Made by a program: the position numbers and the translations under genes. A DNA stretch of 64,000 bases from positions 1-64,000 of the forward strand of contig JACRNB010000012.1 in NCBI GenBank assembly GCA_016219425.1, read 5' to 3'. Origin of the DNA: Betaproteobacteria bacterium. GTDB lineage: Bacteria > Pseudomonadota > Gammaproteobacteria > Burkholderiales > Thiobacillaceae. The first letter of the stretch is position 1; every line of letters begins with the position of its first letter. This document shows positions 11,192-62,425 of this stretch, piece by piece. Below the pieces are notes generated by a model, which was not told where the DNA came from, made no database searches, and was given only the letters and a program-made list of their open reading frames with translations.

Positions 11192-12610
<1,419 letters not shown>

Positions 12611-39496: not shown

Positions 39497-40579
39497 ATGG
39501 TGGAGACCTTCTATGAGGTGATGCGGCGGCAAGGCATCACCCGACGCAGCTTTCTCAAATATTGCAGCCTCACCGCCGCCTCTCTGGGGCTGGGGCCGGC
39601 CTTCGTGCCGAAGATCGCCCACGCCATGGAGACCAAGCCGCGCACCCCGGTGTTGTGGCTGCACGGTCTGGAATGCACCTGCTGCTCCGAGTCCTTCATC
39701 CGCTCCGGCCATCCCCTGGCCAAGGATGCGGTGCTGTCCATGATCTCCCTGGACTACGACGACACCATCATGACCGCCGCCGGCCATCAGGCCGAGGCCA
39801 TCCTTGATGAGGTGATGACCAAGTACAAGGGCAACTACATCCTGGCGGTGGAGGGCAACCCGCCCCTGAACCAGGACGGCATGAGCTGCATCATCGGCGG
39901 CAAGCCCTTCCTGGAGCAGTTGAAGCATGTCGCCAAGGACTGCAAGGCCATCATCTCCTGGGGTTCCTGCGCCTCCTGGGGCTGCGTGCAGGCGGCCAAG
40001 CCCAACCCCACTCAGGCCACGCCGATCCACAAGGTCATCTTCGACAAACCCATCATCAAGGTGCCGGGCTGCCCGCCCATCGCCGAGGTGATGACCGGCG
40101 TAATCACCTACATGCTGACCTTCGACCGCCTGCCGGAGCTGGACCGCCAGGGCCGTCCGAAGATGTTTTACGGCCAGCGCATCCACGACAAGTGCTACCG
40201 CCGCCCCCATTTCGACGCCGGCCAGTTCGCCGAGGCCTGGGACGACGAGGGTTCGCGCAAGGGTTACTGCCTCTACAAGATGGGCTGCAAGGGCCCCACC
40301 ACCTACAACGCCTGCTCCACGGTGCGCTGGAACGGCGGCGTCTCCTTCCCCATCCAGTCCGGCCACGGCTGCATCGGCTGTTCCGAAGACGGCTTCTGGG
40401 ACAAGGGCGGGTTCTACGACCGGGTCACCGGCATCCAGCAGTTCGGCGTGGAGGCCAACGCCGACAAGGTGGGGGGCGCGGCCCTGGGCGTGGTGGGCGC
40501 GGCAGTGGCGGCCCATGCGGCGGTGAGCGCCATCAAACAAACCCAGCAATCCCGCAACAAGCCCGGTCAAGACGAGTGA
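39497..40579 (+). CDS. hoxK: Membrane-bound [NiFe] hydrogenase small subunit, O2-tolerant type
   Basis: A 360-residue Tat precursor: TRRSFLKYC at residues 15-23 and cleavage after AHA-43. It carries three Fe-S clusters. The proximal site reads [10 protein letters not shown] with C60, C62 and C63 (mature 17, 19, 20) and SCASWGC with C158 and C163 (mature 115, 120). The extra Cys19 and Cys120 are those that build the [4Fe-3S] cluster of O2-tolerant group 1d enzymes. A C-terminal hydrophobic helix ([20 protein letters not shown]) anchors it to the membrane. First gene of the operon. Confidence 0.97.
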
Positions 40580-40590
40580 GGTAGAGACAA

Positions 40591-42393
40591 ATGGCTGCTT
40601 ACGAAACCCAAGGCTTCAAGCTCGACAACTCCGGCAAGCGCGTGGTGGTGGACCCGGTGACCCGCATCGAGGGCCACATGCGCGTGGAAGTGAACCTCGA
40701 CGCCAACAACGTGATCCGCAACGCCGTCTCCACCGGCACCATGTGGCGCGGTCTGGAGGTGATCCTGAAAGGCCGCGACCCCCGCGACGCCTGGGCCTTC
40801 ACCGAGCGCATCTGCGGCGTCTGCACCGGCACCCACGCGCTGACCAGCGTGCGCGCCGTGGAAGACGCCCTGGCCATCAAGATCCCGGAGAACGCCAACA
40901 GCATCCGCAACATCATGCAGTTGACCCTCCAGGCCCACGACCACCTGGTCCACTTCTATCACCTGCACGCCCTGGACTGGGTGGACGTGGTGAGCGCCCT
41001 CAAGGCCGATCCCAAGGCCACCTCGGCCCTGGCCCAGAGCATCTCCCCCTGGCCCAACTCCTCCCCCGGCTACTTCCGCGACGTGCAGAACCGGCTGAAG
41101 AAGTTCGTGGAATCGGGCCAGCTCGGGCCGTTCATGAACGGCTACTGGGGCAACCCGGCCTACAAGCTGCCGCCGGAGGCCAACCTGATGGCGGTGACCC
41201 ACTACCTGGAGGCCCTCGATTTCCAGAAGGACATCGTCAAGATCCACACCATCTACGGCGGCAAGAACCCCCACCCCAACTGGCTGGTGGGCGGCGTCCC
41301 CTGCGCCATCAACGTGCACGACACCGGGGCCGTGGGGGCGGTGAACATGGAGCGCCTGAATCTGGTCTCCTACATCATCGACCGCACCATCGAGTTCATC
41401 GACCAGGTCTACATCCCGGACCTGCTGGCCATCGCCAGTTTCTACAAGGGCTGGACCCATGGCGGCGGGCTCTCCTCCAAGAGCGTGCTCTCCTACGGCG
41501 ACATCCCGGACAAGGCCAACGACTACTCCGCCGCCAACCTCATGCTGCCGCGCGGGGCCATCATCAACGGCGACCTCACCCGTGTGCATGAAGTCGATCT
41601 GCGCGACCCCACCCAGGTGCAGGAATTCGTGGACCACTCCTGGTTCAAATACGAGGGTGGCAACAGCGTACCAGGCAAGGGCCTGCACCCCTGGGACGGC
41701 GAGACCGTGCCCCATTACGAGCTGGGCAAGAACGCCAAGGGCAGCAAGACCAACATCCAGCAGATCGACGAGGGCGGCAAGTACTCCTGGATCAAGGCCC
41801 CGCGCTGGAAGGGCCACGCCATGGAAGTCGGCCCCCTGGCCCGCTACATCATCGGCTACGTGCAGAAAAAGCCCGAGTTCAAGGAGCCGGTGGACATGGT
41901 CCTGAAGAAGCTGGACCTGCCCCTGCCGGCCCTGTTCTCCACCCTGGGCCGCACCGCGGCGCGGGGCCTGGAGGCCTCCTGGGCGGCGCACAAGATGCGC
42001 TACTTCCAGGACAAGCTCATGGCCAACCTCAAGGCCGGCGATCTCTCCACCGCCAACATCGAGAAGTGGGAGCCCTCCACCTGGCCGGCGGAGACCAAGG
42101 GCGTCGGCTTCACCGAAGCGCCGCGCGGCGCGTTGGGCCATTGGGTGCGGATCAAGGAAGGCCGCATCGACAACTACCAGTGCGTCGTCCCCACCACCTG
42201 GAACGGCAGTCCGCGCGACAGCAAGGGCCAGATCGGCGCCTTCGAAGCCAGCCTGATGAACACCCCGGTGGCCAAGGCCGACCAGCCCCTGGAGATCCTG
42301 CGCACCCTGCACAGCTTCGACCCCTGCCTCGCCTGCTCCACCCACGTCATGGCGCCGGACGGGGCGGAGTTGACCAAGGTAAGGGTGCGGTGA
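40591..42393 (+). CDS. hoxG: Membrane-bound [NiFe] hydrogenase large subunit
   Basis: A 600-residue catalytic subunit that binds the NiFe(CN)2CO centre and oxidises H2. The Ni ligands are in [11 protein letters not shown] and DPCLACSTH. The C-terminal peptide after His, [15 protein letters not shown], is the maturation tail removed by HoxM. It follows hoxK by 11 bp and would be co-exported with it through Tat. Confidence 0.97.
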
Positions 42394-44188: not shown

Positions 44189-44228
44189 TAAGACCATGTG
44201 CCTAGGCATCCCCGTCCGGAGTAAGACC

Positions 44229-44534
44229 ATGTGCCTAGGCATCCCCGTCCAAATCCTTGAAACCCACGGCCTCATCGCCCACTGCGCCAGCCGCAGCGGC
44301 CCCCGCACCATCGACCTGGCCCTGGTGGGCGAACACCCCCCTGGCGTCTGGCTGCTCACCTTCATCGACGCCGCACGGGAGGTCATCGACGCCGCCACCG
44401 CCGCCCGCATCAACGCCGCCCTGGATGGCCTGGAGGCCGCCATGGCCGGCGAGACCGACCTCAGCGCCCACTTCGCCGACCTCATCGAGCGCACCCCCCA
44501 ACTGCCGCCCCACCTGCGAGAAGCCGCCACATGA
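44229..44534 (+). CDS. hoxL: HypC-family hydrogenase chaperone
   Basis: A 101-residue HypC/HupF-type chaperone dedicated to HoxG. The essential N-terminal Met-Cys starts MCLGIPVQILE. The 33-bp segment 44188-44220, including GTAAGACC-ATG-TGCCTAGGC, is repeated at 44221-44253, so there are two in-frame starts (44196 and 44229) that both give MCLGIPV. The second starts the normal protein. Overlaps hoxO by ATGA. Confidence 0.92.
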   Translation: MCLGIPVQILETHGLIAHCASRSGPRTIDLALVGEHPPGVWLLTFIDAAREVIDAATAARINAALDGLEAAMAGETDLSAHFADLIERTPQLPPHLREAAT

Positions 44535-44972: not shown

Positions 44973-45818
44973 ATGCACGCCTTCCCCATCCCCGTCGTCG
45001 CCATGACGCTAGGCCCCGGCTCCCAGCAGGAAGAAGAGTCCCTGGACTACCTGCCCATGCCCCACGAGATGCGCACCTACCGCGCCCCGGTGCTGCCGGA
45101 GCCGGAAGAGATGGCCGCCGGCCCGCAAGCCCGCGCCTTCCTCGCCGGCCTGCTCAACAGCGCCCGCGCCTGGAAGGCGGGCATGGCTCCCATCAGCCTG
45201 GAACTGGGTAGCCTGCCGCCGGGCGACCGGCAACTCATCGACCAGGTGCTGGGGGAGGGGGAAGTGAGCGCCCAGGTGACGGAAAGCGGCGGTGTCCTGG
45301 CGATCCAGGAAAGCGTGTTCGCCGGGGTGTGGCGACTGCGGGGCCGTAGCGCCGACGGCGGGGTTTTCGCCGAACGTCTCGAAGTGGGCGCCGCCCCCGC
45401 CGCCCTGCTCCAGGCCCGCCTCATGGGCTCCCCCGCCCCGGAAACCCCGTCCCTGGAACCCGGCGTCATCAACGCCCCGGCCCTGCTGGCGGAGATCGCC
45501 GCCAAGCTGAAGGAAGCCGGCGCGGCGGTCCACGTCATCAACCTCTCTCTCCTGCCCTTCTCGCCGGAAGACGCCGCCTGGCTCGACCGCGCCCTGGGCC
45601 GGGGCGCCGCCACGGTGCTGTCGCGGGGCTACGGCAACTGCCGCATCACCGCCACCGGCGTGGCGCGGGTGTGGTGGGTGCAGTACTTCAACTCCCAGGA
45701 CGCCCTCATCCTCAACACCCTCGAAGTCACCGACCTCCCCGACGTCGCCCGCGCCGCCCCGGAAGACCTGGAAGACAGCGCCGAGCGCCTGGCGGAGGTG
45801 CTGGAGTGGGTGGGATGA
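44973..45818 (+). CDS. hoxQ: Hydrogenase accessory protein HoxQ (HyaF/HupH)
   Basis: A 281-residue protein. The N-terminal PIPVVAMTLGPGSQ and LDYLPMPHEM motif and C-terminal VWWVQYFNSQDALILNTLEVT are typical of HupH/HyaF, needed with HoxO for maturation of the small subunit. Its partner is the HoxK precursor. Confidence 0.93.
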   Translation: MHAFPIPVVAMTLGPGSQQEEESLDYLPMPHEMRTYRAPVLPEPEEMAAGPQARAFLAGLLNSARAWKAGMAPISLELGSLPPGDRQLIDQVLGEGEVSAQVTESGGVLAIQESVFAGVWRLRGRSADGGVFAERLEVGAAPAALLQARLMGSPAPETPSLEPGVINAPALLAEIAAKLKEAGAAVHVINLSLLPFSPEDAAWLDRALGRGAATVLSRGYGNCRITATGVARVWWVQYFNSQDALILNTLEVTDLPDVARAAPEDLEDSAERLAEVLEWVG

Positions 45819-46106: not shown

Positions 46107-46908
46107 CAGGGCACTCAAGCTGGAACCCCCCTTTGAAAAAGGGGGGCAGGGGGGATTCGCGGGTGCCGCCCAGGCCACCGCCGCAGGAATCCCCCCCAGC
46201 CCCCCTTTGAGAAAGGGGGGAGCCCACCCCCCCGCGCCAACGCTGGCCGAAGAGTCCCTCCCTTTCCCAAAGGGAGGACAGGAGGGATTCAGCGACGCCC
46301 GCCCAGCCACCGCCGCAGGAATCCCCCCCAGCCCCCCTTTGAGAAAGGGGGGAGCCCACCCTCCCGCGCCGACCGTCGCCGAAGAGTCCCTCCCTTTCCC
46401 AAAGGGAGGACAGGAGGGATTCAGGCCCGCCAGCCCCGACGCTCTCGTCGCCGGCTTCCGCCACATCGCCGCCACCCGCATGACCGGGGTCTCCCTGGTC
46501 AACCCGGCCTTGCGCGTCGAGGCCGTAGGCTTCCGCGAAATCAACGGCTACACCGTGGGCGTGCTCATTACCCCCTGGTGCATGAACCTCATCGGCCTGC
46601 CCGGCGCCGAAACCGAATGGATGGCACGGGGCAGCGGCACCAAACACGACCTGACCCTGCCCTCCGGCGACTACGAATTCCTCACCGCCCACGAAGACAA
46701 CCTCGGCCCCTACCTCTCCGCCTCCCTGTTCTCCCCCCTGTTCGAATTCGGCGACATGGATCAGGCGCGGGCAGTCGCCCAGGCCGTGCTGGCGGAGATC
46801 TTCAACCCCCCCGGGCCGGAACCACTGCCCCAGGGCTTTAGCGCCAAGCTGGACCAGCCCGTCTCCCGCCGGGGCTTCCTCGGCGCCCTCCTGGGCAACC
46901 GGCCATGA
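46099..46908 (+). CDS. hoxT: HybE-domain hydrogenase assembly protein with repeat-derived insertion
   Basis: A 269-residue protein, ~100 residues longer than usual for HoxT/HupJ. The HybE domain is residues ~115-240 (HIAATRMTGVSLVNPALRVEA, TPWCMNLIGLPG). After nine native-like residues, codons ~10-108 are made of KGG elements (PPFEKGGQGGF, IPPSPPLRKGGAHPP, SLPFPKGGQEGF), in frame and without stop. HoxT binds hydrogenase precursors. If the insertion is tolerated, it is an unstructured Gly/Pro/Lys loop; alternatively translation starts further in. Confidence 0.88.
   Translation: MNNRALKLEPPFEKGGQGGFAGAAQATAAGIPPSPPLRKGGAHPPAPTLAEESLPFPKGGQEGFSDARPATAAGIPPSPPLRKGGAHPPAPTVAEESLPFPKGGQEGFRPASPDALVAGFRHIAATRMTGVSLVNPALRVEAVGFREINGYTVGVLITPWCMNLIGLPGAETEWMARGSGTKHDLTLPSGDYEFLTAHEDNLGPYLSASLFSPLFEFGDMDQARAVAQAVLAEIFNPPGPEPLPQGFSAKLDQPVSRRGFLGALLGNRP
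46121..46423. repeat. KGG element array inside hoxT
   Basis: About 2.3 units with an exact 132-bp period (GGAATCCCCCCCAGC at 46186 and 46318), placed in frame near the 5' end of hoxT. The first partial unit is 46121-46160. Confidence 0.92.
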
Positions 46909-47966
46909 GCGCCAGCCTGGAAGGCCGCATCGACATCCGCCACGCGGGCGGCCAGTGGGAAATCCGCTCCACCCGTCCCCAGCTCGCCCAGCGTCTGCTG
47001 GCGGGCCGCAGCCCGGCGGAGGCCGCCGAACTGGCCGGAACCCTGTTCAGCCTGTGCGGCCAGGCCCAGCGCGCCGCCGCCCGCGCCGCCTGCGCGGCAG
47101 CCCTGGGCCAGCCCCTGCCCGACCTGAACCGCGAGGTGCTGGCGGAACTGGCGCGGGAGCACGCCTGGCGGCTGGTGCTGGACTGGCCGCGCGAATTGGG
47201 CAAAAACGTGGGCCAGAACCCCAATCCTGCCGCCCTGCCACGCCTGATGCAGATCGGCCCCCAGCCCGACGCCCTGGGCAGTTGGCTGGAGGAACACCTG
47301 CTGGGCGAGCCCCCCGAGACCTGGCTGGCGCGGGACTGGGCCGGTCTGCAAGCCTGGATCAGCGCCGGGAGCCCCCCCATCGCCACCCTGTTCCAGGGCC
47401 TGGCGGAAGACCAGGGGGAGGGGAGCCCCTTCCTCCCCCCTCTCAGCGCCCTCACCGCCCCCCAGGCCGCCGCCCTCGCGCAACACGCCCTCGACACCCC
47501 CGAGTTCTGCGCCCGCCCCGAATGGCAGGGCGTCCCTGCCGAGACCGGGGCGGTGGCGCGGCAGGCGGGGCATCCCCTGGTGCGGGCCTGGATCGAGCAA
47601 CGGGGCCGAGGCATCGGCGCGCGCCAACTGGCCCGGCTGGTGGAGCTTGCCCAACTCCCGCAACGCCTGCGTCCGAGCAACCCGGCGGCGGACCTGATCC
47701 GCGCCTGGACCCTGGAGGACAATACCGGTCTGGCCGGGGTGGAGACCTCGCGGGGCCTGCTGCTGCATGGGGTGCGCATCGAGACCGGGCGCATCAGCCA
47801 ATACCGCATCATCGCCCCCACGGAATGGAACTTTCACCCCGCCGGCCCCCTGGCGCGGGCACTGCAAGCGCTGCCGCCGGGGCCGGACCTGGAACTACGC
47901 GCGCGCCTGGCGGCCCAAGCCCTGGACCCCTGCGTGGCCTACGGAATCGAGATCGACGATGCATGA
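46905..47966 (+). CDS. hoxV: Hydrogenase assembly scaffold, large-subunit-like
   Basis: A 353-residue HupK/HoxV protein. It is a degenerate relative of the large subunit: LFSLCGQAQ stands for the N-terminal Ni motif and DPCVAYGIEI for the C-terminal one, each keeping a single Cys. It serves as scaffold for building the Fe(CN)2CO unit with HypC/HypD. It overlaps hypA by 8 bp. Confidence 0.93.
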   Translation: MSASLEGRIDIRHAGGQWEIRSTRPQLAQRLLAGRSPAEAAELAGTLFSLCGQAQRAAARAACAAALGQPLPDLNREVLAELAREHAWRLVLDWPRELGKNVGQNPNPAALPRLMQIGPQPDALGSWLEEHLLGEPPETWLARDWAGLQAWISAGSPPIATLFQGLAEDQGEGSPFLPPLSALTAPQAAALAQHALDTPEFCARPEWQGVPAETGAVARQAGHPLVRAWIEQRGRGIGARQLARLVELAQLPQRLRPSNPAADLIRAWTLEDNTGLAGVETSRGLLLHGVRIETGRISQYRIIAPTEWNFHPAGPLARALQALPPGPDLELRARLAAQALDPCVAYGIEIDDA

Positions 47967-48344: not shown

Positions 48345-49364
48345 ATGTGCACGGTATGCGGCTGCGGCCAAGGTGAAACCCGCGTCGAGGGCGAGGCCCA
48401 CGATCATCCCCATCCCCACGACCACAGCCACGAACACGTCCACGCCGACGGCACGGTCCACAGCCACGAACACGGCCATGAACACGGCCACGCCCATACC
48501 GGCCACGACCATACCCACACCCATGCGGATGGCACGGTGCACAGCCATGCCCCCGGCGACGGCCACTTCCACGAGCACAAGGGTGACCTCCATTACGGCC
48601 TCGGCCCCGCCCGCGCCCACGCGCCGGGCCTGACCCAGGAACGCATGGTCCGCATCGAGCAGGACATCCTGGGCAAGAACAACCGCTACGCCGACGCCAA
48701 CCGCCAGCGCTTCACCGAGCACGGCCAGTTCGCCGTCAACCTGGTCTCCAGCCCCGGCTCCGGCAAGACCACCCTGCTGGTGAAGACCATCGAGCTGCTC
48801 AAGGACCGGGCGGCTGTGGCGGTGGTGGAAGGCGACCAGCAGACCAGCAACGACGCCGACCGCATCCGCGCCACCGGCGCGCCAGCCATCCAGGTCAACA
48901 CCGGCAAGGGCTGCCACCTGGACGCCCACATGGTGGGCCACGCCCTGGAACGCCTGGCGCTGCCGGACGACAGCCTGGTGATGATCGAAAACGTCGGCAA
49001 CCTGGTCTGCCCCGCCGCCTTCGACCTGGGCGAAGCCCACAAGGTAGTGATCCTCTCGGTGACGGAAGGCGAGGACAAGCCGTTGAAATACCCGGACATG
49101 TTCCACGCCGCCGACCTGATGTTGTTGAACAAGGTGGACCTGCTGCCCTACCTCCGCTTCGACGTCGCCCAGTGCGAGGACTACGCCCGGCGGGTGAACC
49201 CAAAACTGACGGTGCTGCAAGTCTCCGCCACCTCCGGCGCGGGCATGGAGGCGTGGGTGGAGTGGCTGCTGGCGGGGTTGGGCAAGGCGAAGGCGGGGCG
49301 GGAGTCGATGCATGAAGGGATGAATACCCCCACGGAAAATTGTAGTGAGGAGCCCGGCTGGTGA
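48345..49364 (+). CDS. hypB: Hydrogenase nickel insertion GTPase HypB, His-rich
   Basis: A 339-residue GTPase. MCTVCGCG is the N-terminal high-affinity Ni site. Residues ~19-80 are exceptionally rich in His, with HADGTVHSH appearing twice, showing an internal duplication; this tail stores nickel. [14 protein letters not shown] is the P-loop, [13 protein letters not shown] and NVGNLVCPA follow, and NKVDLLPYL is the guanine motif. The 20 C-terminal residues are variable. Confidence 0.95.
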
Positions 49365-49388: not shown

Positions 49389-49469
49389 GTAGCCCGGATG
49401 CAGCGCAGCGGAATCCGGGGTCTTGTGAACGTTGAATCCCCGGATTCCGCTGCGCTGCATCCGGGCTAC
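49389..49469. repeat. REP-like palindrome, GTAGCCCGGATGCA type
   Basis: An 81-bp near-perfect hairpin between hypB and hypF. It ends ten bases before the hypF ATG, so it could hinder or shape hypF translation. Same family as 36305-36398. Confidence 0.9.
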
Positions 49470-50047
49470 GGTGACCCCATGACCCGCCACCTCCGCATCA
49501 CCGGTATCGTCCAGGGCGTGGGCTTTCGGCCCTACGTCTGGCATCTGGCGCGGGAGCTGAACCTCACCGGCTGGGTGCGCAACGACGCCGTCGGTGTGGA
49601 GGTGCTGGTGACGGGGGAGCCGCAGCCCATCGACGCCTTCTCCCGCCGCCTGCCTTGGGAGATCCCCCCCCTGGCGCGGGTGGATGCGGTGACCTGGACC
49701 GACCTGCCCGCTGCCGACGCGCCCCCGGACTTCCGCATCGTCGAGAGCGGCGCGGGGCGGGCGGCCACCATGATCGGGGTGGATACCGCCGTGTGCCCCG
49801 ACTGTCTGGCCGAGATGCTCGATCCCGCCGACCGGCGTTGGCGTTACGCCTTCATCAACTGCACCCACTGCGGCCCCCGCTACACCCTCACCCGCCGCCT
49901 GCCCTACGACCGCGCCCAGACCAGCATGGCGGCGTTTCCTCTGTGTCCGGCCTGCGCGGGGGAATACCGCGATCCGGCCAACCGGCGCTTTCATGCCGAA
50001 CCCACGGCCTGTCCGGTGTGCGGGCCGAGGCTGTGGGTGGAGGCGCT

Positions 50048-50164
50048 TTCTTCCCCTCCCCCCCCGGGGGAGGGTGGCCCGGAGGGCCGGGTGAGGGAGC
50101 AACGCATCCACCCCGAGAACCGTTGCTCCCTCACCCCAACCCTCCCCCGGGGGGGGAGGGGGCA
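50048..50164. repeat. CCTCCCCC-type repeat inserted in hypF
   Basis: A palindromic unit (CCCCTCCCCCC/GGGGGGGAGGGG arms with GAGGGAGCAACGC inner arm) placed in frame between the HypF zinc fingers and the YrdC domain. It adds about 39 codons. Related to 31332-31469 and 52700-52812. Confidence 0.88.
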
Positions 50165-50733
50165 AGACCCCATCCCTGCCACCCTGGACCGCTTGCGGGC
50201 CGGCGAGATCGTCGCCATCAAGGGCCTGGGGGGCTTTCACCTGGCCTGCGACGCTCGCAACGCCGCCGCCGTGCAGGCCCTGCGGGCGCGCAAGAATCGG
50301 GAGGAGAAGCCCTTCGCCCTGATGGCGGCCAATCCGGCCTCTCTGGCGGCCTGGGTGGAGTGGGGCGCGGAAGAACTGGCCCTGCTGGAATCCCCCGAGC
50401 GGCCCATCGTGCTGTTGCGCAAGCGGCCCGGCGCGGACGCGGCCCTTCCCGACATCGCCCCTGGTCTCGCTTGGTTGGGGGTCATGCTGCCCTACACGCC
50501 GCTGCACTGGCTGCTGTTCCACGAAGCGGCGGGGCGTCCGGCGGGGACGGGCTGGATGTGGGAGGTTCAGGACTTGGTGTTGGTGATGACCAGCGCCAAC
50601 CCCGGCGGCGAGCCTCTGGTGATCCGTAATGACGAGGCGGTGGAACGCCTCGCCGGCATTGCCGATGCGGTGCTGATGCATGACCGGGACGTGGTGGTGC
50701 GGTGTGACGACTCGGTGGTGCGGTGGGAGGCGG

Positions 50734-51297
50734 GAATCCCCCCCAACCCCCCTTTGGAAAAGGGGGGGGCCTCAACCCCCGCGCTGATGGTGGCCGGAGG
50801 GTTCCTCCCTTTAGCAAAGGGAGGACAGGAGGGATTTGGCGACGTCACCTTGGCTACCGTCGCAGAAATCCCCCCCAGCCCCCCTTTGGGAAAGGGGGGA
50901 GCCACAACCCTCGCGCTGACGGTTGCCGAAGGGTTCCTCCCTTTAGCAAAGGGAGGACAGGAGGGATTTGGCGACGTCACCCTGGCCGCCGCCGCAGAAA
51001 TCCCCCCCAGCCCCCCTTTGGGAAAGGGGGGCGCCTCAACCCCCGCGCTGACGGTTGCCGGAGGGTTCCTCCCTTTAGCAAAGGGAGGACAGGAGGGATT
51101 TGGCGACGTCACCTTGGCTACCGTCGCGGGAATCCCCCCCAGCCCCCCTTTGGGAAAGGGGGGAGCCTCAACCCCCGCGCTGACGGTTGCCGAAGGGTTC
51201 CTCCCTTTAGCAAAGGGAGGACAGGAGGGATTTGGCGACGTCACCTTGGCCGCCGCCGCAGAAATCCCCCCCAGCCCCCCTTTGGGAAAGGGGGGAG
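50734..51297. repeat. 132-bp x 4.3 KGG tandem array inside hypF
   Basis: Successive copies start at 50734, 50866, 50998, 51130 and 51262, an exact 132-bp (44-codon) period, with only point changes between copies. Each holds arms CCCCCCTTTG/AAAGGGGGG and CTCCCTTTAG/AAAGGGAGGAC. The last copy is truncated. It replaces the short loop between the YrdC and Kae1 domains. Confidence 0.95.
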
Positions 51298-52139
51298 TAC
51301 ACAGCCAGTTCATCCGCCGCGCCCGCGGCTATACCCCCCGCGCCATCAAACTTCCCCGTTCCGGACCCTCGGTGCTGGCCCTGGGGGGCTATCTCAAGAA
51401 CACGATCTGCGTCACTCGGGGGGATGAGGCCTTTCTTTCCCAGCACATCGGCGGCCTGGACAACCCGGCCACTTGCGGCATGGTGATGGAGGTCGCCCAG
51501 CACCTGTTGGGCATCCTGGAGGTGCGCCCCCAGGCCGTGGCCCACGACCTGCATCCGGATTTCTTCTCCACCCGCCATGCCTTGGAATTAGCGGCGCAAT
51601 GGGACGCGCCCGCCGTCGCCGTGCAGCATCACCACGCCCACATCGCCGCCGTGGCGGCGGAACATGGCGTCGAAAAGCCCCTGCTGGGGCTGGCCCTGGA
51701 TGGCGTCGGTCTGGGCGCCGATGGCGGCGCATGGGGCGGCGAACTGCTGCGGCTGGAGGGTGCGGCGTTCACCCGCCTGGGCCACCTCGCCCCCCTGCCC
51801 CTGCCCGGCGGGGACAAGGCGGCGAAGGAGCCCTGGCGCATGGCGGCGGCGGCGCTGCACCGGATGGGGCGGGGCGGGGAGATCGCCCGGCGCTTCCCGG
51901 AGCAAGCTCTGGCGGTGAATCTGGAACGGCTGCTCAGTCAGGGCGACGGGTTGAAACCCGCCCTACAGACCACCACCAGCCTGGGCCGCTGGTTCGACGC
52001 GGCGGCGGGGCTGCTGGGGGTGCGGGCAGTGATGGCTTACGAGGGTCAGGCGGCGATGTTGCTGGAAGGGCTGGCGGAGCGGCACGGCCCGGTCGCGCCG
52101 CTGGAGGGGGGCTACCGCCTCACGGAGCGCACCCCATAC

Positions 52140-52160
52140 GAAATCCGAAATCCGAAATCC
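52140..52160 (+). repeat. GAAATCC heptamer x3 in hypF (frame-changing)
   Basis: Three exact heptamers at 52140, 52147 and 52154. In the upstream hypF frame, three copies leave the downstream coding region in another frame, while one or four copies would restore it. The same heptamer family forms the hairpin at 9225-9317. Confidence 0.95.
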
Positions 52161-52464
52161 ACCTCGACCTGCTGCCCCTGCTCCACCGCCTCGCCGACGA
52201 ACCCGACGCCGCCCACGGCGCGGCCCTGTTCCACGCTACCCTGGCCCTGGCCCTGGCGGACTGGGTGGAGGCCGCCGTCCGGCGGGAGAATCTGACCACC
52301 GTCGCCCTGGGCGGCGGCTGTTTTTTGAACCACATCCTGAGCCGGTCTCTGGAACGCCAGTTGGCCGCGCGCGGGATCACCACTCTGGCCGCGCGCCAGG
52401 CCCCGCCCAATGACGGCGGTTTGAGCCTGGGCCAGGCCTGGGTCGCTCTGCAAGGAATGCAACC

Positions 52465-52686
52465 ATGTGTCTAGCCATCCCCGCCCGCGTGGCGGAACTC
52501 CGCGCGAACGACATCGCCATCGTCGATCTGGGCGGCGTGAAGAAGGACATCTCCCTGGCCCTGGTGGAGGACGTGCAGGTGGGCGATTACGTCATCGTCC
52601 ACGTTGGCTACGCCCTCACCCGCCTGGACCCGGAAGAGGCGGAAAAGACCCTGGCCCTGATGGCGGAAGCGGGGGTGTTGTCATGA
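52465..52686 (+). CDS. hypC: Hydrogenase assembly chaperone HypC
   Basis: A 73-residue chaperone starting MCLAIPARVAELR, with the essential Cys2. It works with HypD in assembling Fe(CN)2CO. It overlaps the hypF stop (ATGTGTCTAG) and its own stop overlaps ATG 52683. Confidence 0.96.
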   Translation: MCLAIPARVAELRANDIAIVDLGGVKKDISLALVEDVQVGDYVIVHVGYALTRLDPEEAEKTLALMAEAGVLS

Positions 52687-52823
52687 GCGCCCAGCCTTTC
52701 TCCCTCCCCCTCCGGGGGAGGGCCGGGGTGAGGGAACAACGTTTCCTGACCTCAGCGCCCAATGAGCCGTGGCTCCCTCACCCCCGGCCCCTCTCCCCGA
52801 GGGAGAGGGGAGCAAAACCATGA
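52683..52823 (+). CDS. Possible 46-codon bridging ORF made of a repeat, between hypC and hypD
   Basis: The ORF starts at ATG 52683, overlapping the hypC stop (ATGA), and ends at TGA 52821-52823, overlapping the hypD start (ATGA at 52820). Its sequence (MSAQPFSLPLRGRAGVREQR, then a stretch ending SPRERGAKP) is translated from the CCTCCCCC-type repeat. It could keep hypD translationally coupled to hypC despite the insertion. No function as a protein is proposed. Confidence 0.45.
   Translation: MSAQPFSLPLRGRAGVREQRFLTSAPNEPWLPHPRPLSPRERGAKP
52700..52812. repeat. CCTCCCCC-type repeat between hypC and hypD
   Basis: Palindrome with arms CTCCCTCCCCCTCCGGGG ... CCCCTCTCCCCGAGGGAGAG and inner GGGTGAGGGA/TCCCTCACCC arms. 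Separates hypC and hypD, which are normally adjacent. Confidence 0.88.
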
Positions 52824-53944
52824 AGTACGTTGACGAATTCCGCGACGGCGACATCGCCCAAGGACTCAGCAAGGCCATCGCCGCCGAAGTCCGCGCCGAC
52901 CGCCGCTACAACTTCATGGAGTTCTGCGGCGGCCACACCCACGCCATCTCCCGTTACGGCGTCACCGACCTGCTGCCCGCCAACGTGCGCATGATCCACG
53001 GCCCCGGCTGCCCGGTCTGCGTGCTGCCCATCGGACGCATCGACCTGGCCATCCACCTGGCCCTGGAGCGGGGCGTCATCGTCTGCACCTACGCCGACAC
53101 GATGCGCGTACCCGCCTCCCATAACCTCTCCCTGATGCGGGCGAAAGCGCGGGGAGGCGACATCCGCATGGTCTATGCCGTCACCGACGCCCTGCGCATC
53201 GCCCGGGACAACCCGGCCAAGGAGGTGGTGTTTTTCGCCATCGGCTTCGAGACCACCACGCCCCCCACGGCGGTGGCCATCAAGCAGGCCCAGGCCGAGG
53301 GCCTGACCAACTTCACGGTGCTGTGCTGCCATGTGCTCACCCCGTCGGCCATCATGAACATCCTGGAATCGCCCGAGGTGCGGGAGCTGGGCACGGTGCC
53401 CCTGGACGGTTTCATCGGCCCGGCCCACGTCTCCACGGTGATCGGCAGCCGCCCCTACGACCACTTCGCCGAGGAATACCGCAAGCCCGTGGTGATCGCC
53501 GGCTTCGAGCCCCTGGACGTGATGCAGGCCATCCTCATGCTGGTGCGCCAGGTGAACCAGGGCCGCGCCGAGGTGGAAAACGAATTCACCCGCGCCGTCA
53601 CCCCGGACGGCAACCTCAAGGCCCAGGCCCTGGTGTCGGAGGTGTTCGAGCTGCGCCGCAGCTTCGAATGGCGCGGCCTGGGAGAGGTGCCCTATTCCGC
53701 CCTGGCCATCCGCGCGGCCTACGCCGAGTTCGACGCGGAGCGCCGCTTCGATCTGGAATACCACCCGGCCCCGGACAACAAGGCCTGCGAATGCGGGGCC
53801 ATCCTGCGCGGGGTGAAGCGGCCCACCGACTGCAAGCTGTTCGGCACGGTCTGCACGCCGGAATCGCCCATGGGCTCGTGCATGGTGTCCAGCGAAGGGG
53901 CCTGCGCGGCGCATTACACCTACGGGCGGCACAAGGATGCTTGA
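52820..53944 (+). CDS. hypD: Hydrogenase maturation protein HypD
   Basis: A 374-residue Fe-S protein forming the Fe(CN)2CO assembly core with HypC. EFCGGHTHAISRYG, GPGCPVCVLPIGRID and FETTTPPTAVAI are conserved, and the C-terminal cluster Cys are in KACECGAILRG, CKLFGTVC and GSCMVSSEGACAA. Start ATG 52820. Confidence 0.97.
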   Translation: MKYVDEFRDGDIAQGLSKAIAAEVRADRRYNFMEFCGGHTHAISRYGVTDLLPANVRMIHGPGCPVCVLPIGRIDLAIHLALERGVIVCTYADTMRVPASHNLSLMRAKARGGDIRMVYAVTDALRIARDNPAKEVVFFAIGFETTTPPTAVAIKQAQAEGLTNFTVLCCHVLTPSAIMNILESPEVRELGTVPLDGFIGPAHVSTVIGSRPYDHFAEEYRKPVVIAGFEPLDVMQAILMLVRQVNQGRAEVENEFTRAVTPDGNLKAQALVSEVFELRRSFEWRGLGEVPYSALAIRAAYAEFDAERRFDLEYHPAPDNKACECGAILRGVKRPTDCKLFGTVCTPESPMGSCMVSSEGACAAHYTYGRHKDA

Positions 53945-54614: not shown

Positions 54615-55664
54615 ATGGGTGACGTAAAAAAAGGCTACGCCCGCCCCCTGGACATCAAACAGGGCCGCGTGGACCTCTCCCACGGCGGCGGCGGACGCGC
54701 CATGGTGCAGCTCATCACGGAACTGTTCGCCAAACACCTGGGCAACGAGTACCTGGCCCAGGGCAACGACGGCACCCTGCTGCCCGCCGGGGCCGGACAT
54801 CTCGTGATCTCCACCGACAGCCATGTGGTTTCGCCCCTGTTCTTCCCCGGCGGCGACATCGGCGGCCTCTCGGTGCACGGCACTGTCAACGATGTGGCGG
54901 TGATGGGCGCCACGCCCCTCTACCTCACCGCCGGTTTCATCCTGGAGGAAGGCTTCCCCCTGGCGGACCTGGCCCGCATCGTCGAATCCATGGCCCGGGC
55001 CGCCAACGCCGCCGGCGTGAAACTGGTGGCGGGCGACACCAAGGTGGTGGAGCAGGGCAAGGGGGATGGCGTGTTCATCACCACCACCGGCGTGGGCTAT
55101 GTGCCGGAAGGCCTGCGCCTCTCCGGCGACCTGGCCCGGCCTGGGGACGTGGTGCTGGTGTCCGGCAGCATCGGCGACCACGGCATGGCCATCATGAGCC
55201 AGCGGGAAAACCTCTCCTTCGACGCCCCCATCCTGTCCGATTCCGCCTCCCTCCACGGTCTCACCGCCGCCATGCTGGCCAGCGGCGCGGCCCTGCGGGT
55301 GATGCGCGACCCGACCCGGGGCGGCGTGGCGGCTACGTTGAACGAGATCGCCCACCAGTCCGGCGTGGGCATCCATCTGGACGAAGCGGCGATTCCGGTC
55401 AAACCCGAGGTGAACGCCGCCTGCGAACTGCTGGGCCTGGACCCCCTCAACATCGCCAACGAAGGCAAGTTGCTGGCGGTGTGCGCGGCGGCGGATGCGG
55501 AGCGGTTGCTGGCGGCGATGCGCGCCCATCCCCAGGGGCGGGAGGCGGCGGTGATCGGGCGCGTGGTGGAGGACGCCCATTGTTTTGTGCAGATGAAGAC
55601 CGGCTTCGGCGGGCGGCGCATGGTGGATTGGCTCTCCGGCGAGCAGTTGCCGAGGATTTGTTGA
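54615..55664 (+). CDS. hypE: Hydrogenase maturation protein HypE
   Basis: A 349-residue PurM-like enzyme that dehydrates thiocarbamate to thiocyanate on its C-terminal Cys, made by HypF. LSHGGGGRAMVQLI is the N-terminal motif, STDSHVVSPLFFPGGDIGGL the ATP site and the protein ends in the diagnostic PRIC. It depends on HypF for substrate. Confidence 0.97.
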   Translation: MGDVKKGYARPLDIKQGRVDLSHGGGGRAMVQLITELFAKHLGNEYLAQGNDGTLLPAGAGHLVISTDSHVVSPLFFPGGDIGGLSVHGTVNDVAVMGATPLYLTAGFILEEGFPLADLARIVESMARAANAAGVKLVAGDTKVVEQGKGDGVFITTTGVGYVPEGLRLSGDLARPGDVVLVSGSIGDHGMAIMSQRENLSFDAPILSDSASLHGLTAAMLASGAALRVMRDPTRGGVAATLNEIAHQSGVGIHLDEAAIPVKPEVNAACELLGLDPLNIANEGKLLAVCAAADAERLLAAMRAHPQGREAAVIGRVVEDAHCFVQMKTGFGGRRMVDWLSGEQLPRIC

Positions 55665-56356: not shown

Positions 56357-58207
56357 ATGCGCCTCCTCCTCCTCACCCACGCCTTCAACTCCCTCACCCA
56401 GCGCCTGTTTGTTGAACTCCAGGCCCTGGGCCACGAGTTATCGGTGGAATTCGACATCAACGACCGCGTTACCGAAGAGGCGGCGGACCTGTTCCGCCCC
56501 CACCTGATCCTGGCCCCCTACCTGCGCCGGGCCATCCCGGAGTCGGTCTGGCGCAAGCATTTGTGCCTCATCCTCCACCCCGGCCCCGTGGGCGACCGGG
56601 GGCCGTCGGCCCTGGACCGGGCGATTCTTGAAGGCGCGCAGGAATGGGGCGTCACCCTGCTCCAGGCCGAGGCGGCGATGGACGCCGGCCCGGTCTGGGC
56701 CAGCGAACGCTTCCCCATGCGGGCGGCGAAGAAATCCAGCCTCTACCGCAACGAGGTGACGGAAGCGGCGGTACGGGCGGTGAAGACGTCCCTGGAACGC
56801 CTGCCGGACTACCGCGCAGGCCGCTGGACGCCCCAGCGGCCCGAGATTCAAGCCCTGCGCCCCCTGCTGCGCCAGGAGGAGCGGGCCATCGACTGGTCCC
56901 GCGACGCCACCGCCGTGGTGCTGGCGAAGATCAACAGCGCCGACGGCTTCCCCGGCCTGCGTGACCGCCTGTTCGATGCCGACTGCCACCTCTACAACGC
57001 CCGCCCCTACCCGGCGCAGGGCGCGCCCGGCGCGGTGCTGGGCCGGGCGGGGGAGGGGCTGGTGCGGGCCACCACGGACGGGGCGGTGTGGATCGGCCAC
57101 GGACGGCAGAGCGGCGGGATCAAACTGCCGATGAGCCTGGTGTGGGGCGAGGTTTGGCGGGGGGTGGTGGAGATGGAGGCGTTGCTGAATCCCCCCTGCC
57201 CCCCTTTGGAAAAGGGGGGTTCTGGTTTGACTCCCCCCTGCCCCCCTTTGAGAAAGGGGGGTTCTGGCTTGATTTCTCCCTGTCCCCCTCTGGGAAAGGG
57301 GGGGGCTGGTTTGTCTCCCCCCTTTCCCAAAGGGGGGCAGGGGGGGATTCCTACGACCGACGACATCCACTACGAAGAATCCAACCAAGTCGGCTTCCTC
57401 CACTTCGACTTCTACAACGGCGCCATGGGCGTAGCCGCCTGCCAGCGCCTGCTGACCGCCTACGAGGCCGCGAAGCAACGCTCCACAAAGGTCATCGTCC
57501 TCCTGGGCGGCGCGGACTTTTTCAGCAACGGCCTGGACCTCAACCGCATCGAGGCCGCGGACAGCCCGCCGGATGAATCCTGGCGCACTATCCAGGCCAT
57601 GGACGATCTCTGCCGCGCCATCCTCACCACCGAAAGCCACCTCACCGTCAGCGCCCTGCGCGGCAATGCGGGGGCGGGGGGCGCTTTTCTGGCCCTGGCG
57701 GCGGATCACGTCTGGGCGCGGCGCGGGGTGATCCTCAACCCCCACTACAAGAACATGGGCAACCTGTACGGCTCCGAGTACTGGACCTATGTGCTGCCGC
57801 GCCGGGTGGGGGCGGACCAGGCCGCTGCGATCCTGCGCAACCGTTTGCCTCTGGGGGCGCAGACGGCGGCGCGCATCGGCTTCCTCGACGCCGCCTTCGG
57901 TGAAGACCTGAACAGCTTCGAGGCGGAGGTTCGCACCCGTGCCCAGGCCCTGGCCGCCGCCCCGGATTTCGCGGACCAACTCGCAGCCAAGCGCGCCCGC
58001 CGCGCCGCCGACGAGGCCGCCAAGCCCCTGGAGGTCTACCGCGCGGAGGAGTTGAAACCCATGCAGCGCAACTTCTACGGCTTCGATCCCAGCTACCACG
58101 TGGCGCGCCACCACTTCGTCGCCAAGACCCCCGCCTCCTGGACGCCCCGGCATCTGGCGGTGCATCGGGAGCTTGGCTGGGTGGCGCCGGAGGAGGGGGG
58201 GTCGTGA
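56357..58207 (+). CDS. hoxX: HoxX/HypX, CO-ligand synthesis protein with repeat insertion
   Basis: A 616-residue protein. Residues ~1-270 are the formyltransferase-like half (LILHPGPVGDRGPSALDRAI with the catalytic region), residues ~335-600 the enoyl-CoA hydratase-like half (LGGADFFSNGLDLNRIEA, GNAGAGGAFLALAADHV). HypX makes the CO ligand from 10-formyl-THF under oxic conditions. Between the halves, ~56 residues are repeat-encoded (PPCPPLEKGGSGL x3, PPFPKGGQGGIP), in frame. Placement in the linker should leave both domains intact. Confidence 0.92.
   Translation: MRLLLLTHAFNSLTQRLFVELQALGHELSVEFDINDRVTEEAADLFRPHLILAPYLRRAIPESVWRKHLCLILHPGPVGDRGPSALDRAILEGAQEWGVTLLQAEAAMDAGPVWASERFPMRAAKKSSLYRNEVTEAAVRAVKTSLERLPDYRAGRWTPQRPEIQALRPLLRQEERAIDWSRDATAVVLAKINSADGFPGLRDRLFDADCHLYNARPYPAQGAPGAVLGRAGEGLVRATTDGAVWIGHGRQSGGIKLPMSLVWGEVWRGVVEMEALLNPPCPPLEKGGSGLTPPCPPLRKGGSGLISPCPPLGKGGAGLSPPFPKGGQGGIPTTDDIHYEESNQVGFLHFDFYNGAMGVAACQRLLTAYEAAKQRSTKVIVLLGGADFFSNGLDLNRIEAADSPPDESWRTIQAMDDLCRAILTTESHLTVSALRGNAGAGGAFLALAADHVWARRGVILNPHYKNMGNLYGSEYWTYVLPRRVGADQAAAILRNRLPLGAQTAARIGFLDAAFGEDLNSFEAEVRTRAQALAAAPDFADQLAAKRARRAADEAAKPLEVYRAEELKPMQRNFYGFDPSYHVARHHFVAKTPASWTPRHLAVHRELGWVAPEEGGS
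57184..57352. repeat. KGG element array inside hoxX (45-bp period)
   Basis: Three to four short units of ~45 bp (15 codons), each with arms CCCCCCTTTG/AAAGGGGGG, lie in the inter-domain linker. Unlike hypF, the short half-unit alone has been amplified. Confidence 0.9.
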
Positions 58208-58337: not shown

Positions 58338-59867
58338 ATGACCCCCGCCCTCCCCACCGTCCTCGTCGTGGACGACGAAATCCGCTCCCAGGAGGCCCTG
58401 CGCCGCACACTGGAGGAGGACTTCACCGTGTTCACCGCCTCCTCCGCCGCCGAGGCGCGGGCGATCATGGGGCGGGAGGCGATCCAGGTGGTGCTCACGG
58501 ACCAGCGCATGCCCGAGGTCAGCGGCGTCACCTTCCTCAAGGAGGTGCGGGAGACCTGGCCCGACACGGTGCGCATCATCATCTCCGGCTACACCGACAG
58601 CGAAGACATCATCGCCGGTATCAACGAGGCGGGCATCTACCAATACCTGCTCAAACCCTGGCATCCGGACCAGCTCCTGCTCACCCTGCGCCGGGCCGCC
58701 GAACTGCATCGCCTGCAACAGGAGAACTGCCAGTTGGCGGTGGAACTGCGCGCCGCCGAGCCGGTGCTGCGTCGCCATGTGGAGGGGGTGCGGGCGCGGG
58801 TGAAGCAGGCCTTCGACCTCAACAACCTGGTGCGCGCGCCTCATAGCCCCATGCATGCCCTGTGCGACCAGGTGGCGCGGGCGGCGCGCTACGACGTCTC
58901 CATGCTGCTCATGGGCGAATCCGGCACCGGCAAGGAGTTGCTCGCCCGGGCCATCCACTACGCCAGCGGGCGCGCCGACCAGGCCTTCGTGGTGGAAAAC
59001 TGCGGCGCTCTGCCCGACACCCTGCTGGAGTCGGAACTGTTCGGCCACAAGAAGGGGGCCTTCACCGGGGCCAGTGAAGACCGCATCGGCCTGTTCCAGC
59101 AGGCCCACGGCGGCACCCTGTTCCTGGACGAGATCGGCGAGACCACCCCGGCCTTCCAGGTCAAGCTGCTGCGGGTGTTGCAGGAGGGCGAGTTCCGCCC
59201 CGTGGGGGGCGCGCGGCCCCAGCGGGTGGACGTGCGCGTCATCGCCGCCACCAACCGGGATCTGGAGACGGAGGTGAAGGCGGGCCGCTTCCGCGAAGAC
59301 CTCTACTACCGCCTCGCCACCGTGCCGGTGCGGGTGCCGCCCCTGCGCGACCGGCCCATGGACATCCCCCTCATCGCCCAGGCCATCCTGCGCAAGGCCG
59401 CCCAGGCCCTGGGGCGGGGCGAGGTGCGGGGTTTCGGCGACGAACTCGCCGCCTGCCTCGCGGCCTATCCCTGGCCCGGCAACGTGCGGGAATTGCAGAA
59501 CGAGATCCAGCGCCTGCTGGTGCTGTCGGAGGGGGCCACCCTGGATGTGGGCCTGCTCGGGCCCCACATCCGCCACGCCGGTCTGGTCCGTGTTTTGGGG
59601 GAGGGTGACCCGGCCCGGGGCGCGTTGCGCAACCAGGTGGACGCCCTGGAGGCGCGTCTGGTGCAGGAGACCCTGGTGCGCCACGACGGCAACCTGAGCC
59701 GGGCGGCGAAGGAACTGGGCCTGTCGCGCTTAGGCCTGCGCCAGAAGCTCACCCGCCTGGGGCTGGAACCGCCCCTGCGCCCGCGCGGGCGACCCGTCTC
59801 TCCCCTCTCCCCCGCCGGGGGAGCGACCGTCAAGTCCCCCAAGGGGGCCAGGGAAGTCGAGCCATGA
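58338..59867 (+). CDS. hoxA: HoxA, NtrC-type response regulator of hydrogenase genes
   Basis: A 509-residue protein. Receiver residues 1-120 hold D55 (TDQRMPE) and K106 (LLKPWHP). The central AAA+ domain has GESGTGKE near 193-200 and GAFTGA at 240-245, the sigma-54 contact loop. The C-terminal Fis-type HTH is [20 protein letters not shown]. In C. necator the unphosphorylated form activates. It should act at the 39421 promoter. The last ~30 residues are Pro-rich and probably come from a palindrome (59796-59850). Overlaps hoxB by ATGA. Confidence 0.96.
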
Positions 59868-60865
59868 CCGCCCCCCTCAACCTCCTCTGGCTGCAATCCG
59901 GCGGCTGCGGCGGCTGCACCCTGTCCCTGCTCAACGCCGAACAGCCGGACCTGTTCCAGCGCCTGGAGGATGCGGGCATCCGCCTGCTCTGGCACCCCAG
60001 CCTGAGCCGGGAATCCGGCGACGAGGCCCTGGCGATCCTGCGCGCCTGCGCCGAGGGGCGGGAGCGAGTGGACCTGCTCTGCATCGAGGGCTCGATCATG
60101 ACCGGACCCCACGGCAGCGGGCGTTACCACCTGCTCTCCGGCACGGGCCGCCCGATGATGGACTGGGTGCGGGAGCTGACCGCCCGCGCCCGGCACACCC
60201 TGGCCATCGGCAGTTGCGCCGCCTTTGGCGGGATCACCGCCCTGGGGGATGCCGGGGCGGTGGGCCTGCAATTCAGCGGCGACCAGCCCGGCGGTCTGCT
60301 GGGCGGGGCCTACCGCTCCGGCTCGGGCCTGCCGGTCATCAACGTGGCGGGTTGCCCCACCCACCCCGGCTGGGTGCTGGACACCCTGCTGGCCCTGGCC
60401 CTGGATCGCTTCAGCGCCGCCGACCTGGATCTGTTGCAGCGCCCTCGCCTGTACGCCGACCATCTGGTGCATCACGGCTGTCCCCGCAACGAGTTCTATG
60501 AATTCAAGGCCAGCGCCGAGAAGCCCTCGGACCAGGGCTGCATGATGGAAAACCTGGGCTGCAAGGGCACCCAGGCCCATGCCGACTGCAACACCCGGCT
60601 ATGGAACGGGGCCGGCTCCTGCCTGCGCGGCGGCTATCCCTGCATCAGTTGCACCGAACCGGGTTTCGAACACCCCGGCCACCCCTTCGCCGAGACCCCC
60701 AAGGTGGCGGGCATCCCCATCGGCCTGCCCACCGACATGCCCAAGGCCTGGTTCGTCGCCCTGGCCGCCCTGTCCAAGTCCGCCACCCCCAGGCGGGTGC
60801 GCGAGAACGCCGTGGCGGACCACATCGTGGTGACGCCGGCGGTGAAGAAGACGGGGTTGAAATGA
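59864..60865 (+). CDS. hoxB: Regulatory (H2-sensing) hydrogenase small subunit
   Basis: A 333-residue HupU/HoxB protein. It has no Tat signal and no membrane anchor, so it is cytoplasmic. SGGCGGCTLSLL and SCAAFGG show the standard proximal cluster, with Gly in place of the extra Cys of HoxK. CTEPGFEHPGHPF is the distal/medial cluster region. With HoxC it senses H2 and controls HoxJ. Confidence 0.96.
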   Translation: MTAPLNLLWLQSGGCGGCTLSLLNAEQPDLFQRLEDAGIRLLWHPSLSRESGDEALAILRACAEGRERVDLLCIEGSIMTGPHGSGRYHLLSGTGRPMMDWVRELTARARHTLAIGSCAAFGGITALGDAGAVGLQFSGDQPGGLLGGAYRSGSGLPVINVAGCPTHPGWVLDTLLALALDRFSAADLDLLQRPRLYADHLVHHGCPRNEFYEFKASAEKPSDQGCMMENLGCKGTQAHADCNTRLWNGAGSCLRGGYPCISCTEPGFEHPGHPFAETPKVAGIPIGLPTDMPKAWFVALAALSKSATPRRVRENAVADHIVVTPAVKKTGLK

Positions 60866-60874
60866 GAGGTACGC

Positions 60875-60978
60875 AAATCCCCCCCAGCCCCCCTTTGGGA
60901 AAGGGGGGGGCCAAAACCCCCGCGCTGTGGGTAATCGAAGGGTTCCTCCCTTTTCCAAAGGGAGGACAGGAGGGATTC
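60875..60978. repeat. KGG element between hoxB and hoxC
   Basis: One unit with both palindromes (CCCCCCTTTGGG/AAAGGGGGGG and CCTCCCTTTTCC/AAAGGGAGGAC). It separates hoxB and hoxC, which are usually adjacent. Confidence 0.92.
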
Positions 60979-61009
60979 CCGCTACGCCTGCCATCCTCCA
61001 AGGCCCCCC

Positions 61010-62425
61010 ATGACTGAACGCCTCCTCGGCCCCTTCAATCGCGTCGAAGGCGACCTGGAAGTACGCCTGGAGATCGCCGATGGTCAGATCCAGTCCGCTC
61101 AGGTCGTCTCCCCCCTGTACCGGGGCTTCGAGACCATGCTGCCGGGTCGCGCGCCCCTGGACGCCCTGGTGATCGTGCCCCGCATCTGCGGCATCTGTTC
61201 CGTCTCCCAGAGCGCCGCCGCCGTCACCGCCCTGCGTCAGCTCACCGGCCTGACGCCGCCGGACAACGGTCGCCTGGCGGAGTGCCTCATCACCGCCGGC
61301 GAGAACGTGGCCGACCACCTGACCCACTTCTACCTCTTCTTCATGCCCGACCTCGCCCGCCCGGCCTACGCGGCGCGGCCCTGGCATGGGCGCATGGCAG
61401 AACGTTTCGAGGCGGTGAAAGGCCAGGGTGCGGCGGAGTTCCTGGCCGCCCGCGCCGCCTTCATGCACCTCCAGGGTTTGATGGCGGGCAAGTGGCCCCA
61501 CACCCTCACCCTGCAACCCGGCGGCAGCGCTCGCCCCCTGCACCAGGCGGAATGCCTGCAACTCACCGCCTTGCTGCGGTCCTTCCGGCGCTTTCTGGAG
61601 CAGCGGGTCTACGGCGGCCCCCTGGAGGCCTTCGCCGCCCTGGCCGCCCCGGAGGAACTGAATGACTGGCGTCGCCGGCACCCCGGCGACCTCTCCCTGT
61701 TCCTGGAGGCGGCGGAAGACCTGGACCTGGCCCGGCTGGGGCGTTGCGATGCCGACTACCTCAGCTTCGGCGTGTACGAGGCCCCGGAGGGCCGCCTGTT
61801 CCCGGCGGGGGTCTGGTCCGGCGGACGGCTCGCTCCCCTGGCCCCGGAGCGCATCAGCGAAGACCTGAGCCATGCCTGGATGCGCAGCGAGACCCTGCCC
61901 GACGCCGACAAGCCCGGCGCCTACACCTGGTGCAAGGCCCCCCGCTACGGCGGTCAGGTGATGCAGACCGGCGCCCTGGCCCGGCAGTTGGTGGCAGGTC
62001 AGCCCCTGCTGCACCGGCTGGTGGCGGAGCAGGGCGGCGGCGTCCTCGCACGGGTGCTGGCCCGCCATATCGAGGTGGCGCGGCTGCTGCCGGAGATGGA
62101 GGCCTGGGCCGCCCGCCTGATCCCCGGTCAGCCCTGGTGCGCGCCAACGCCGGAGTGGCCCCGGCAGGGCGCAGGCGTCGGGCTCACCGAAGCGGCCCGG
62201 GGCAGCCTGGGCCACTGGCTGGAGGTGGAGGAGGGACGCATCCGCCGCTACCAGATCATCGCCCCCACCACCTGGAACTTCTCGCCAAGGGACGAGGCGG
62301 GGGTTCCGGGCGCGTTGGAGCAGGCCCTGACCGGCCTGCCGGTGGCGGCGGACGACCCCATGCCGGTGAATGTGCAGCATGTGGTGCGGTCTTTCGACCC
62401 GTGCATGGTGTGTACGGTGCATTGA
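61010..62425 (+). CDS. hoxC: Regulatory (H2-sensing) hydrogenase large subunit
   Basis: A 471-residue HupV/HoxC protein. RICGICSVSQSAA and DPCMVCTVH carry the Ni ligands. It ends exactly at His, with no cleavable tail, as is normal for sensor hydrogenases that need no protease. Its activity still needs Hyp maturation, so the hypF defect would also affect H2 sensing. Confidence 0.96.
   Translation: MTERLLGPFNRVEGDLEVRLEIADGQIQSAQVVSPLYRGFETMLPGRAPLDALVIVPRICGICSVSQSAAAVTALRQLTGLTPPDNGRLAECLITAGENVADHLTHFYLFFMPDLARPAYAARPWHGRMAERFEAVKGQGAAEFLAARAAFMHLQGLMAGKWPHTLTLQPGGSARPLHQAECLQLTALLRSFRRFLEQRVYGGPLEAFAALAAPEELNDWRRRHPGDLSLFLEAAEDLDLARLGRCDADYLSFGVYEAPEGRLFPAGVWSGGRLAPLAPERISEDLSHAWMRSETLPDADKPGAYTWCKAPRYGGQVMQTGALARQLVAGQPLLHRLVAEQGGGVLARVLARHIEVARLLPEMEAWAARLIPGQPWCAPTPEWPRQGAGVGLTEAARGSLGHWLEVEEGRIRRYQIIAPTTWNFSPRDEAGVPGALEQALTGLPVAADDPMPVNVQHVVRSFDPCMVCTVH

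Follow-up and report, generated by a model that had tools for sequence, protein, structure and literature searches.

A three-unit GAAATCC array breaks the reading frame of the only hypF found in a betaproteobacterial genome: recent unit loss, artefact or switch?

Does a short tandem repeat in a maturation gene switch the hydrogen metabolism of a bacterium on and off, or does it mark a gene that has recently been lost? This question is raised by a locus in Betaproteobacteria bacterium GCA_016219425.1, contig JACRNB010000012.1, positions 1 to 64,000 of the forward strand; these 64,000 nt, the whole stretch that was analyzed, are referred to as the window. The original prediction held that three copies of GAAATCC put the end of hypF out of frame and that the repeat may be a slippage switch. 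As a whole this interpretation is partly supported. The frame break was confirmed by the frames of the ORFs and by TIGR00143 pieces that match in different frames. The parts of the gene are:

49476..52139, + strand: upstream part of hypF, in frame (TIGR00143, 658 bits, three stretches, model positions 1-627)
50735..51297, + strand: 132-bp tandem array of 4.3 copies, in frame within hypF between model positions 366 and 368
52140..52160, + strand: GAAATCC x3 array, frame break of hypF (GAAATCCGAAATCCGAAATCC)
52161..52295, + strand: out-of-frame tail after the repeat, to the stop codon (ORF reading)
52160..52474, + strand: last ~100 hypF codons, out of frame with the upstream part (TIGR00143 positions 655-739; 654-739 in a second run)

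The body of hypF, which presumably comprises the acylphosphatase, zinc-finger and YrdC-like domains and the start of the Kae1-like domain, is read in the frame of ORF 49398-52295, with a stop 135 nt past the repeat. The conserved end of the gene (HLDLLPLLHRLADEPDA...GGGCFLNH) is in a different frame, that of ORF 51473-52474, which is the -1 frame. One or four GAAATCC units leave hypF in one frame, and two or three put it out of frame; the predicted arithmetic (one or four units restore, three break) is correct, and unit number sets the frame. As in a contingency locus, the unit is not a multiple of three and lies within the coding sequence, and some unit number regains the conserved full-length frame. 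TRF called the array at 52139-52160 with a period of 7 and a 100% match. It is the sole perfect 7-mer triplet in the 64-kb window, and 60 first-order Markov simulations of the window produced none. About 18 nt 5' of the array are also unlike the relatives, so the insertion is not simply a heptamer run.

The upstream match (658 bits) exceeds the TIGR00143 cut-off of 466.1, yet model positions 655-739 lie in another frame, as in a broken copy. The original prediction had left room for another hypF, and none was found by a profile search with TIGR00143 and HypF_C_2 across the 3.10-Mb genome (16 contigs, completeness 100%, contamination 0.06). Further TIGR00143 matches on contigs C9 and C11 are weak (7.8e-9 and 1.1e-4, below cut-off) and were rejected as a second hypF since they are partial only; we take them to be YrdC/Sua5- and TsaD-type proteins. 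TIGR00143 matches also occur in all 14 control genomes, mostly below cut-off. The C11 locus passes the low HypF_C_2 cut-off (31.5 versus 27 bits), as do 10 of the 14 controls. Solved HypF structures (3vth, 3tsq, 3tsp, 4g9i) were matched by sequence and confirm the family only.

Four [NiFe] large-subunit genes were identified in the genome with PF00374. Two are in the window (uptake and sensor-type) and two on contig C10 (a second group-1-like gene and a VhuA-like gene near a NuoF-like gene); a short C-terminal PF00374 match was also seen in ORF 46905-47966. The cyanide ligands of [NiFe] sites come from HypF, and all four large subunits should therefore depend on this hypF, which should serve more hydrogenases than the original prediction knew of. 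That prediction took HypF to be needed for both the membrane-bound hydrogenase and the H2 sensor; this agrees with the one hypF found for four large subunits, while switching of the whole system is unsupported. The hydrogenase and hyp genes around hypF include:

39497..42393, + strand: uptake [NiFe]-hydrogenase small and large subunits, open frames, expected HypF clients (TIGR00391, NF007550)
48345..49364, + strand: hypB, intact (TIGR00073)
52465..52686, + strand: presumably hypC (open frame starting MCLAIP), its start overlapping the hypF end
52769..53944, + strand: hypD, intact (TIGR00075)
54615..55664, + strand: hypE, intact (TIGR02124)
59864..62425, + strand: sensor-type hydrogenase small and large subunits, presumably HupU/HupV-like, open frames, expected HypF clients (profile matches)

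Open frames were found in all recognised neighbours, namely the hydrogenase subunits, maturation protease, hybE, hypA, hypB, hypD, hypE, a regulator and a kinase. When 20 ORFs of the window were compared with NCBIfam, matches were in open frames except for 44973-45815 and 52467-52685, the latter being in a frame other than that of hypC. A frameshift-ridden assembly was rejected because the other ORFs of the window match families in open frames. A gene presumed to be pycB had been suspected of being broken as well, and this too was rejected, as it is contained in ORF 9318-12011.

Relatives of the same genus show what the site looks like elsewhere. In 19 of the 22 other genomes compared, the site lacks the repeat and is spanned by a single hypF frame. 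For 17 of these the site could be aligned, and in all 17 both pieces share a frame and GAAATCC is absent there. The other two (G009 and G020) are too divergent for site alignment and were judged by a single open model match (positions 2-738); neither has a double heptamer anywhere in its genome. Three congeners were not judged, one with hypF cut by contig ends (G007) and two with no hypF above cut-off (G016, G018). In a set of 98 hypF loci, in which some genomes occur more than once, 90 keep a single frame, 6 are without one or both matches and 2 differ in frame: L081, which breaks further downstream, and L132, which has masked bases. In the L081 locus (JALOTG010000079.1, a MAG) the frame change follows ADW in the C-terminal part. 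Among 117 family genomes, a pattern search with part of the motif limited to codons ending in G or C found the repeat beside LDLLP only in this genome; it gave four matches in three genomes, of which two overlap each other at the hypF site and the other two are no heptamer arrays. The conservation expected of a contingency locus is therefore not seen at the hypF site, and a four-unit hypF was not seen in any relative examined. Growth of a native single GAAATCC to three units was rejected because the corresponding loops of 16 relatives hold no GAAATCC.

The turn at this site varies in length among relatives. G004 and G008 (loci L054 and L059) carry a different in-frame insert at the same turn, VIPAQAGIQ or VIPANAGIQ followed by ~15 residues. 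In the predicted structure of a relative (375 residues, mean pLDDT 86.9), the site corresponds to an HDDG turn of a beta-hairpin between strands 266-267 and 272-274, with pLDDT 97 in the 10-residue blocks around it, and the C-terminal piece is part of one predicted domain. These in-frame insertions and the predicted hairpin turn indicate that the site tolerates inserts.

GAAATCC arrays are a lineage-specific heptamer family, being numerous, dispersed and above chance. The pattern GAAATCCGAAATCC gave 43 overlapping double-unit matches in this genome and was found in 8 of 23 genus genomes, this one included; the reversed-pattern control gave none in either case. The stretches around the matches listed in these eight genomes hold 114 arrays of at least two perfect units, with hypF included. 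Among the 17 in this genome, one is in hypF, two are at the start of a glycosyltransferase gene, and the rest are intergenic or at most ~55 nt from a predicted gene end. The family is mostly intergenic, and its arrays often occur as inverted pairs. One such pair, degenerate, is at 9223-9314 in the window, directly 5' of a gene named maf-like by likeness; upstream of maf in G015 there are instead 6 and 14 perfect units, the 6 at the very start of a contig.

Some arrays lie in the interior of genes; in five species this gene is mutL, and the other hosts are hrpA, a cheA-like gene and a gene for a 49-kDa-subunit-like protein (host names presumed, some from Pfam domains). Two further arrays at the 5' end of the glycosyltransferase gene are in frame with its body and out of frame with its ATG. 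This gene follows a diacylglycerol kinase gene on the minus strand of L049 (G000:C6:79500-83500; arrays 1980-2007 and 2046-2073). Its start region is duplicated, the 66-bp units containing GAAATCC x4, and the ATG that overlaps the kinase stop is out of frame with the body. Altogether, nine of ten in-gene arrays outside hypF have 4 units and one has 7 (27 or 48 nt, encoding an EIRNPKSEI-type peptide); counted alike, with one mismatch allowed per unit, the hypF array has 3 units and 20 nt. The frame is kept when the unit number is 1 mod 3, and the ten arrays with 4 or 7 units point to 4 as the in-frame state of hypF. Of 113 arrays examined, 53 were flagged as overlapping a predicted gene; 13 ORFs were read and 6 counted. 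Since six of the ten were located via an open frame, their in-frame state is partly a matter of ascertainment. Start-proximal arrays (L153, L157, L158, L187, L188, L192 and L193) are outside the count, and the rest of those flagged showed a weak coding signal or were close to ends.

In mutL, the interdomain linkers of five species (L231, L233, L234, L236, L237) contain an in-frame EIRNPKSEI-type insert, some beside PPFxKGG-type repeats. These are five of the 14 linkers displayed for the 21 mutL genes found (7 linkers were not caught by the search expression), and the mutL of this genome is not among them. Between the linkers of G013 and G014 there is a difference of 7 codons, equal to three units. 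Together with the maf arrays, this indicates that arrays change unit number over evolutionary time and that frame-keeping numbers remain in genes. A screen for arrays whose flanks differ in frame flagged seven. L047, L050, L147 and L169 mark gene boundaries, L153 is adjacent to a gene start, and for L048:9405 and L149:2806 the judgement is based on ORF ends only. The hypF array scored just below the threshold and two contig-edge arrays were unscored, so this screen is insensitive.

We consider it somewhat probable that hypF is a null allele created by recent loss of a unit from an in-frame repeat insertion. An array of the spreading GAAATCC family would have entered the beta-hairpin turn of HypF and been tolerated as an in-frame EIRNPKSEI-type insert, probably of four units. 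Loss of one unit would have left three, throwing translation off frame and removing the last ~100 residues, GGGCFLN included; such an allele should disable [NiFe] hydrogenase maturation in this cell. Here we infer the ancestral four-unit state, the loss by slippage and the loss of function. The C-terminal piece retains coding signal and shows no decay; the ratio of its mean identity to that of the upstream part is 0.938 against the 17 relatives, whose own range is 0.874-1.009. The change is thus recent, reversible, or an artefact, and reversal of the break is possible in principle.

An assembly or consensus artefact, in which the true array has four units or a small indel lies nearby and hypF is intact, is unlikely though not negligible. 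A broken hypF is odd when the other recognised hydrogenase and hyp genes are open, and another repeat-associated gene of the same assembly, the glycosyltransferase, starts in a frame other than that of its body. However, any usual read is longer than the 21-bp array, and completeness is given as 100%. Among the matches listed, the starts of contigs C9 and C12 fall within arrays with a 135-bp spacing, and a site of this kind is at 114 in C2, suggesting a short-read assembly, in which few indel errors would be expected.

A maintained slippage switch appears distinctly unlikely. Unit number would have to change so frequently that cells with HypF on (4 or 1 units) and off always coexist, and the uptake, bidirectional-type and sensor [NiFe] hydrogenases would be toggled together. 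The unit length is not divisible by three and the array is in a gene, one hypF was found for several hydrogenases, and the C-terminal piece is not decayed, all of which speaks for a switch. With a recent null allele or an artefact of assembly, however, the locus would look no different. The in-gene arrays counted outside hypF are in frame with the body of their gene, and the repeat is absent from the site in the 17 aligned congeners and, by the restricted pattern, present only here among the 117 family genomes. There is a precedent for a coding heptanucleotide switch: in the available text of PMC13001214, neuO of phage CUS-3 in E. coli K1 is phase-variable through AAGACTC, with 3-53 units, 20 being commonest, and 42 of 64 complete genomes off. 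As far as that text goes, the two genes are alike in having a coding heptanucleotide repeat whose number decides the frame. However, the neuO repeat is at the 5' end, differs in number among many strains and acts on the capsule, with measured mixtures, whereas hypF has three units near the 3' end in one genome and encodes an intracellular enzyme. With three units, at the bottom of the range given there for neuO, and no examined congener having the repeat at the site, the predicted switch is unsupported. No report on phase variation of hypF or of hydrogenases was among the literature matches listed, which cover titles and the starts of abstracts in open-licence literature and so give no proof of absence.

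Two other readings are very improbable. HypF could be completed despite the frameshift, by -1 ribosomal frameshifting or by a separately started C-terminal piece. This would fit the conserved downstream -1 frame; however, by eye the array lacks a canonical X XXY YYZ slippery site and the C-terminal frame has no ATG, GTG or TTG before the valine of ADWVEA, and the piece belongs to one predicted domain. Equally hard to credit is an old pseudogene in a lineage whose hydrogen metabolism is on its way out, for which the frameshift in the only hypF found would speak, but open frames persist in the C-terminal piece and in the hyp and hydrogenase genes that were recognised.

Other repeats are also present in and around these genes. 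Arrays of 132 bp (and 42 bp) with the palindrome CCCCCCTTTnnnAAAGGGGGG are at 50735-51297, 46138-46424, 43948-44188 and 57186-57323, inside the frames of hypF, hybE and others, where they encode PPSPPLGKGG-type peptides; the palindrome has 87 sites in the genome and its reversed control has none. At 44185-44250, an exact 33-bp tandem duplication over the start of what we take to be a second hypC-like gene yields MCLGIPVRSKTMCLGIPV. Tandem repeats of 158 bp and 70 bp containing CGCCCGGCACAGCCGGGCTCCTACA were found at 37608-37994.

In-frame insertion into many unrelated proteins is also known from Rickettsia palindromic elements, which are longer palindromes and not heptamer arrays. Heptameric intergenic repeats have been reported in Xanthomonas (GGGAATC) and Nostoc (GGGGATT) in the accessible portion of PMC4692102, and TAACTGA in Beggiatoaceae, with in-gene repeats mainly at protein ends, in that of PMC4679880. 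Judged from these portions, they resemble GAAATCC in being lineage-specific and mostly intergenic with occasional in-gene arrays. The GAAATCC family differs in unit sequence and in its frequent inverted pairs and, unlike TAACTGA, has some in-frame arrays inside the body of conserved housekeeping genes. In Borg ORFs, tandem repeats similarly make new amino-acid repeats under frame selection, but their units, in the excerpted account (PMC9879509), are divisible by three, while with 7 nt only totals of 1 mod 3 keep the frame.

This work brings to light a heptamer family whose arrays occur in proteins in a frame-keeping form of 4 or 7 units. Judged from its hypF sequence, the genome as assembled does not look capable of using hydrogen, and even a plain hypF-null allele warns that hydrogenase annotation in such genomes can overstate H2 use. 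Should reads show mixed unit numbers, the array would be a phase-variable energy-metabolism switch at the one gene that the [NiFe] hydrogenases share, and such a switch, if true, would mean phase-variable energy metabolism in an environmental lithotroph.
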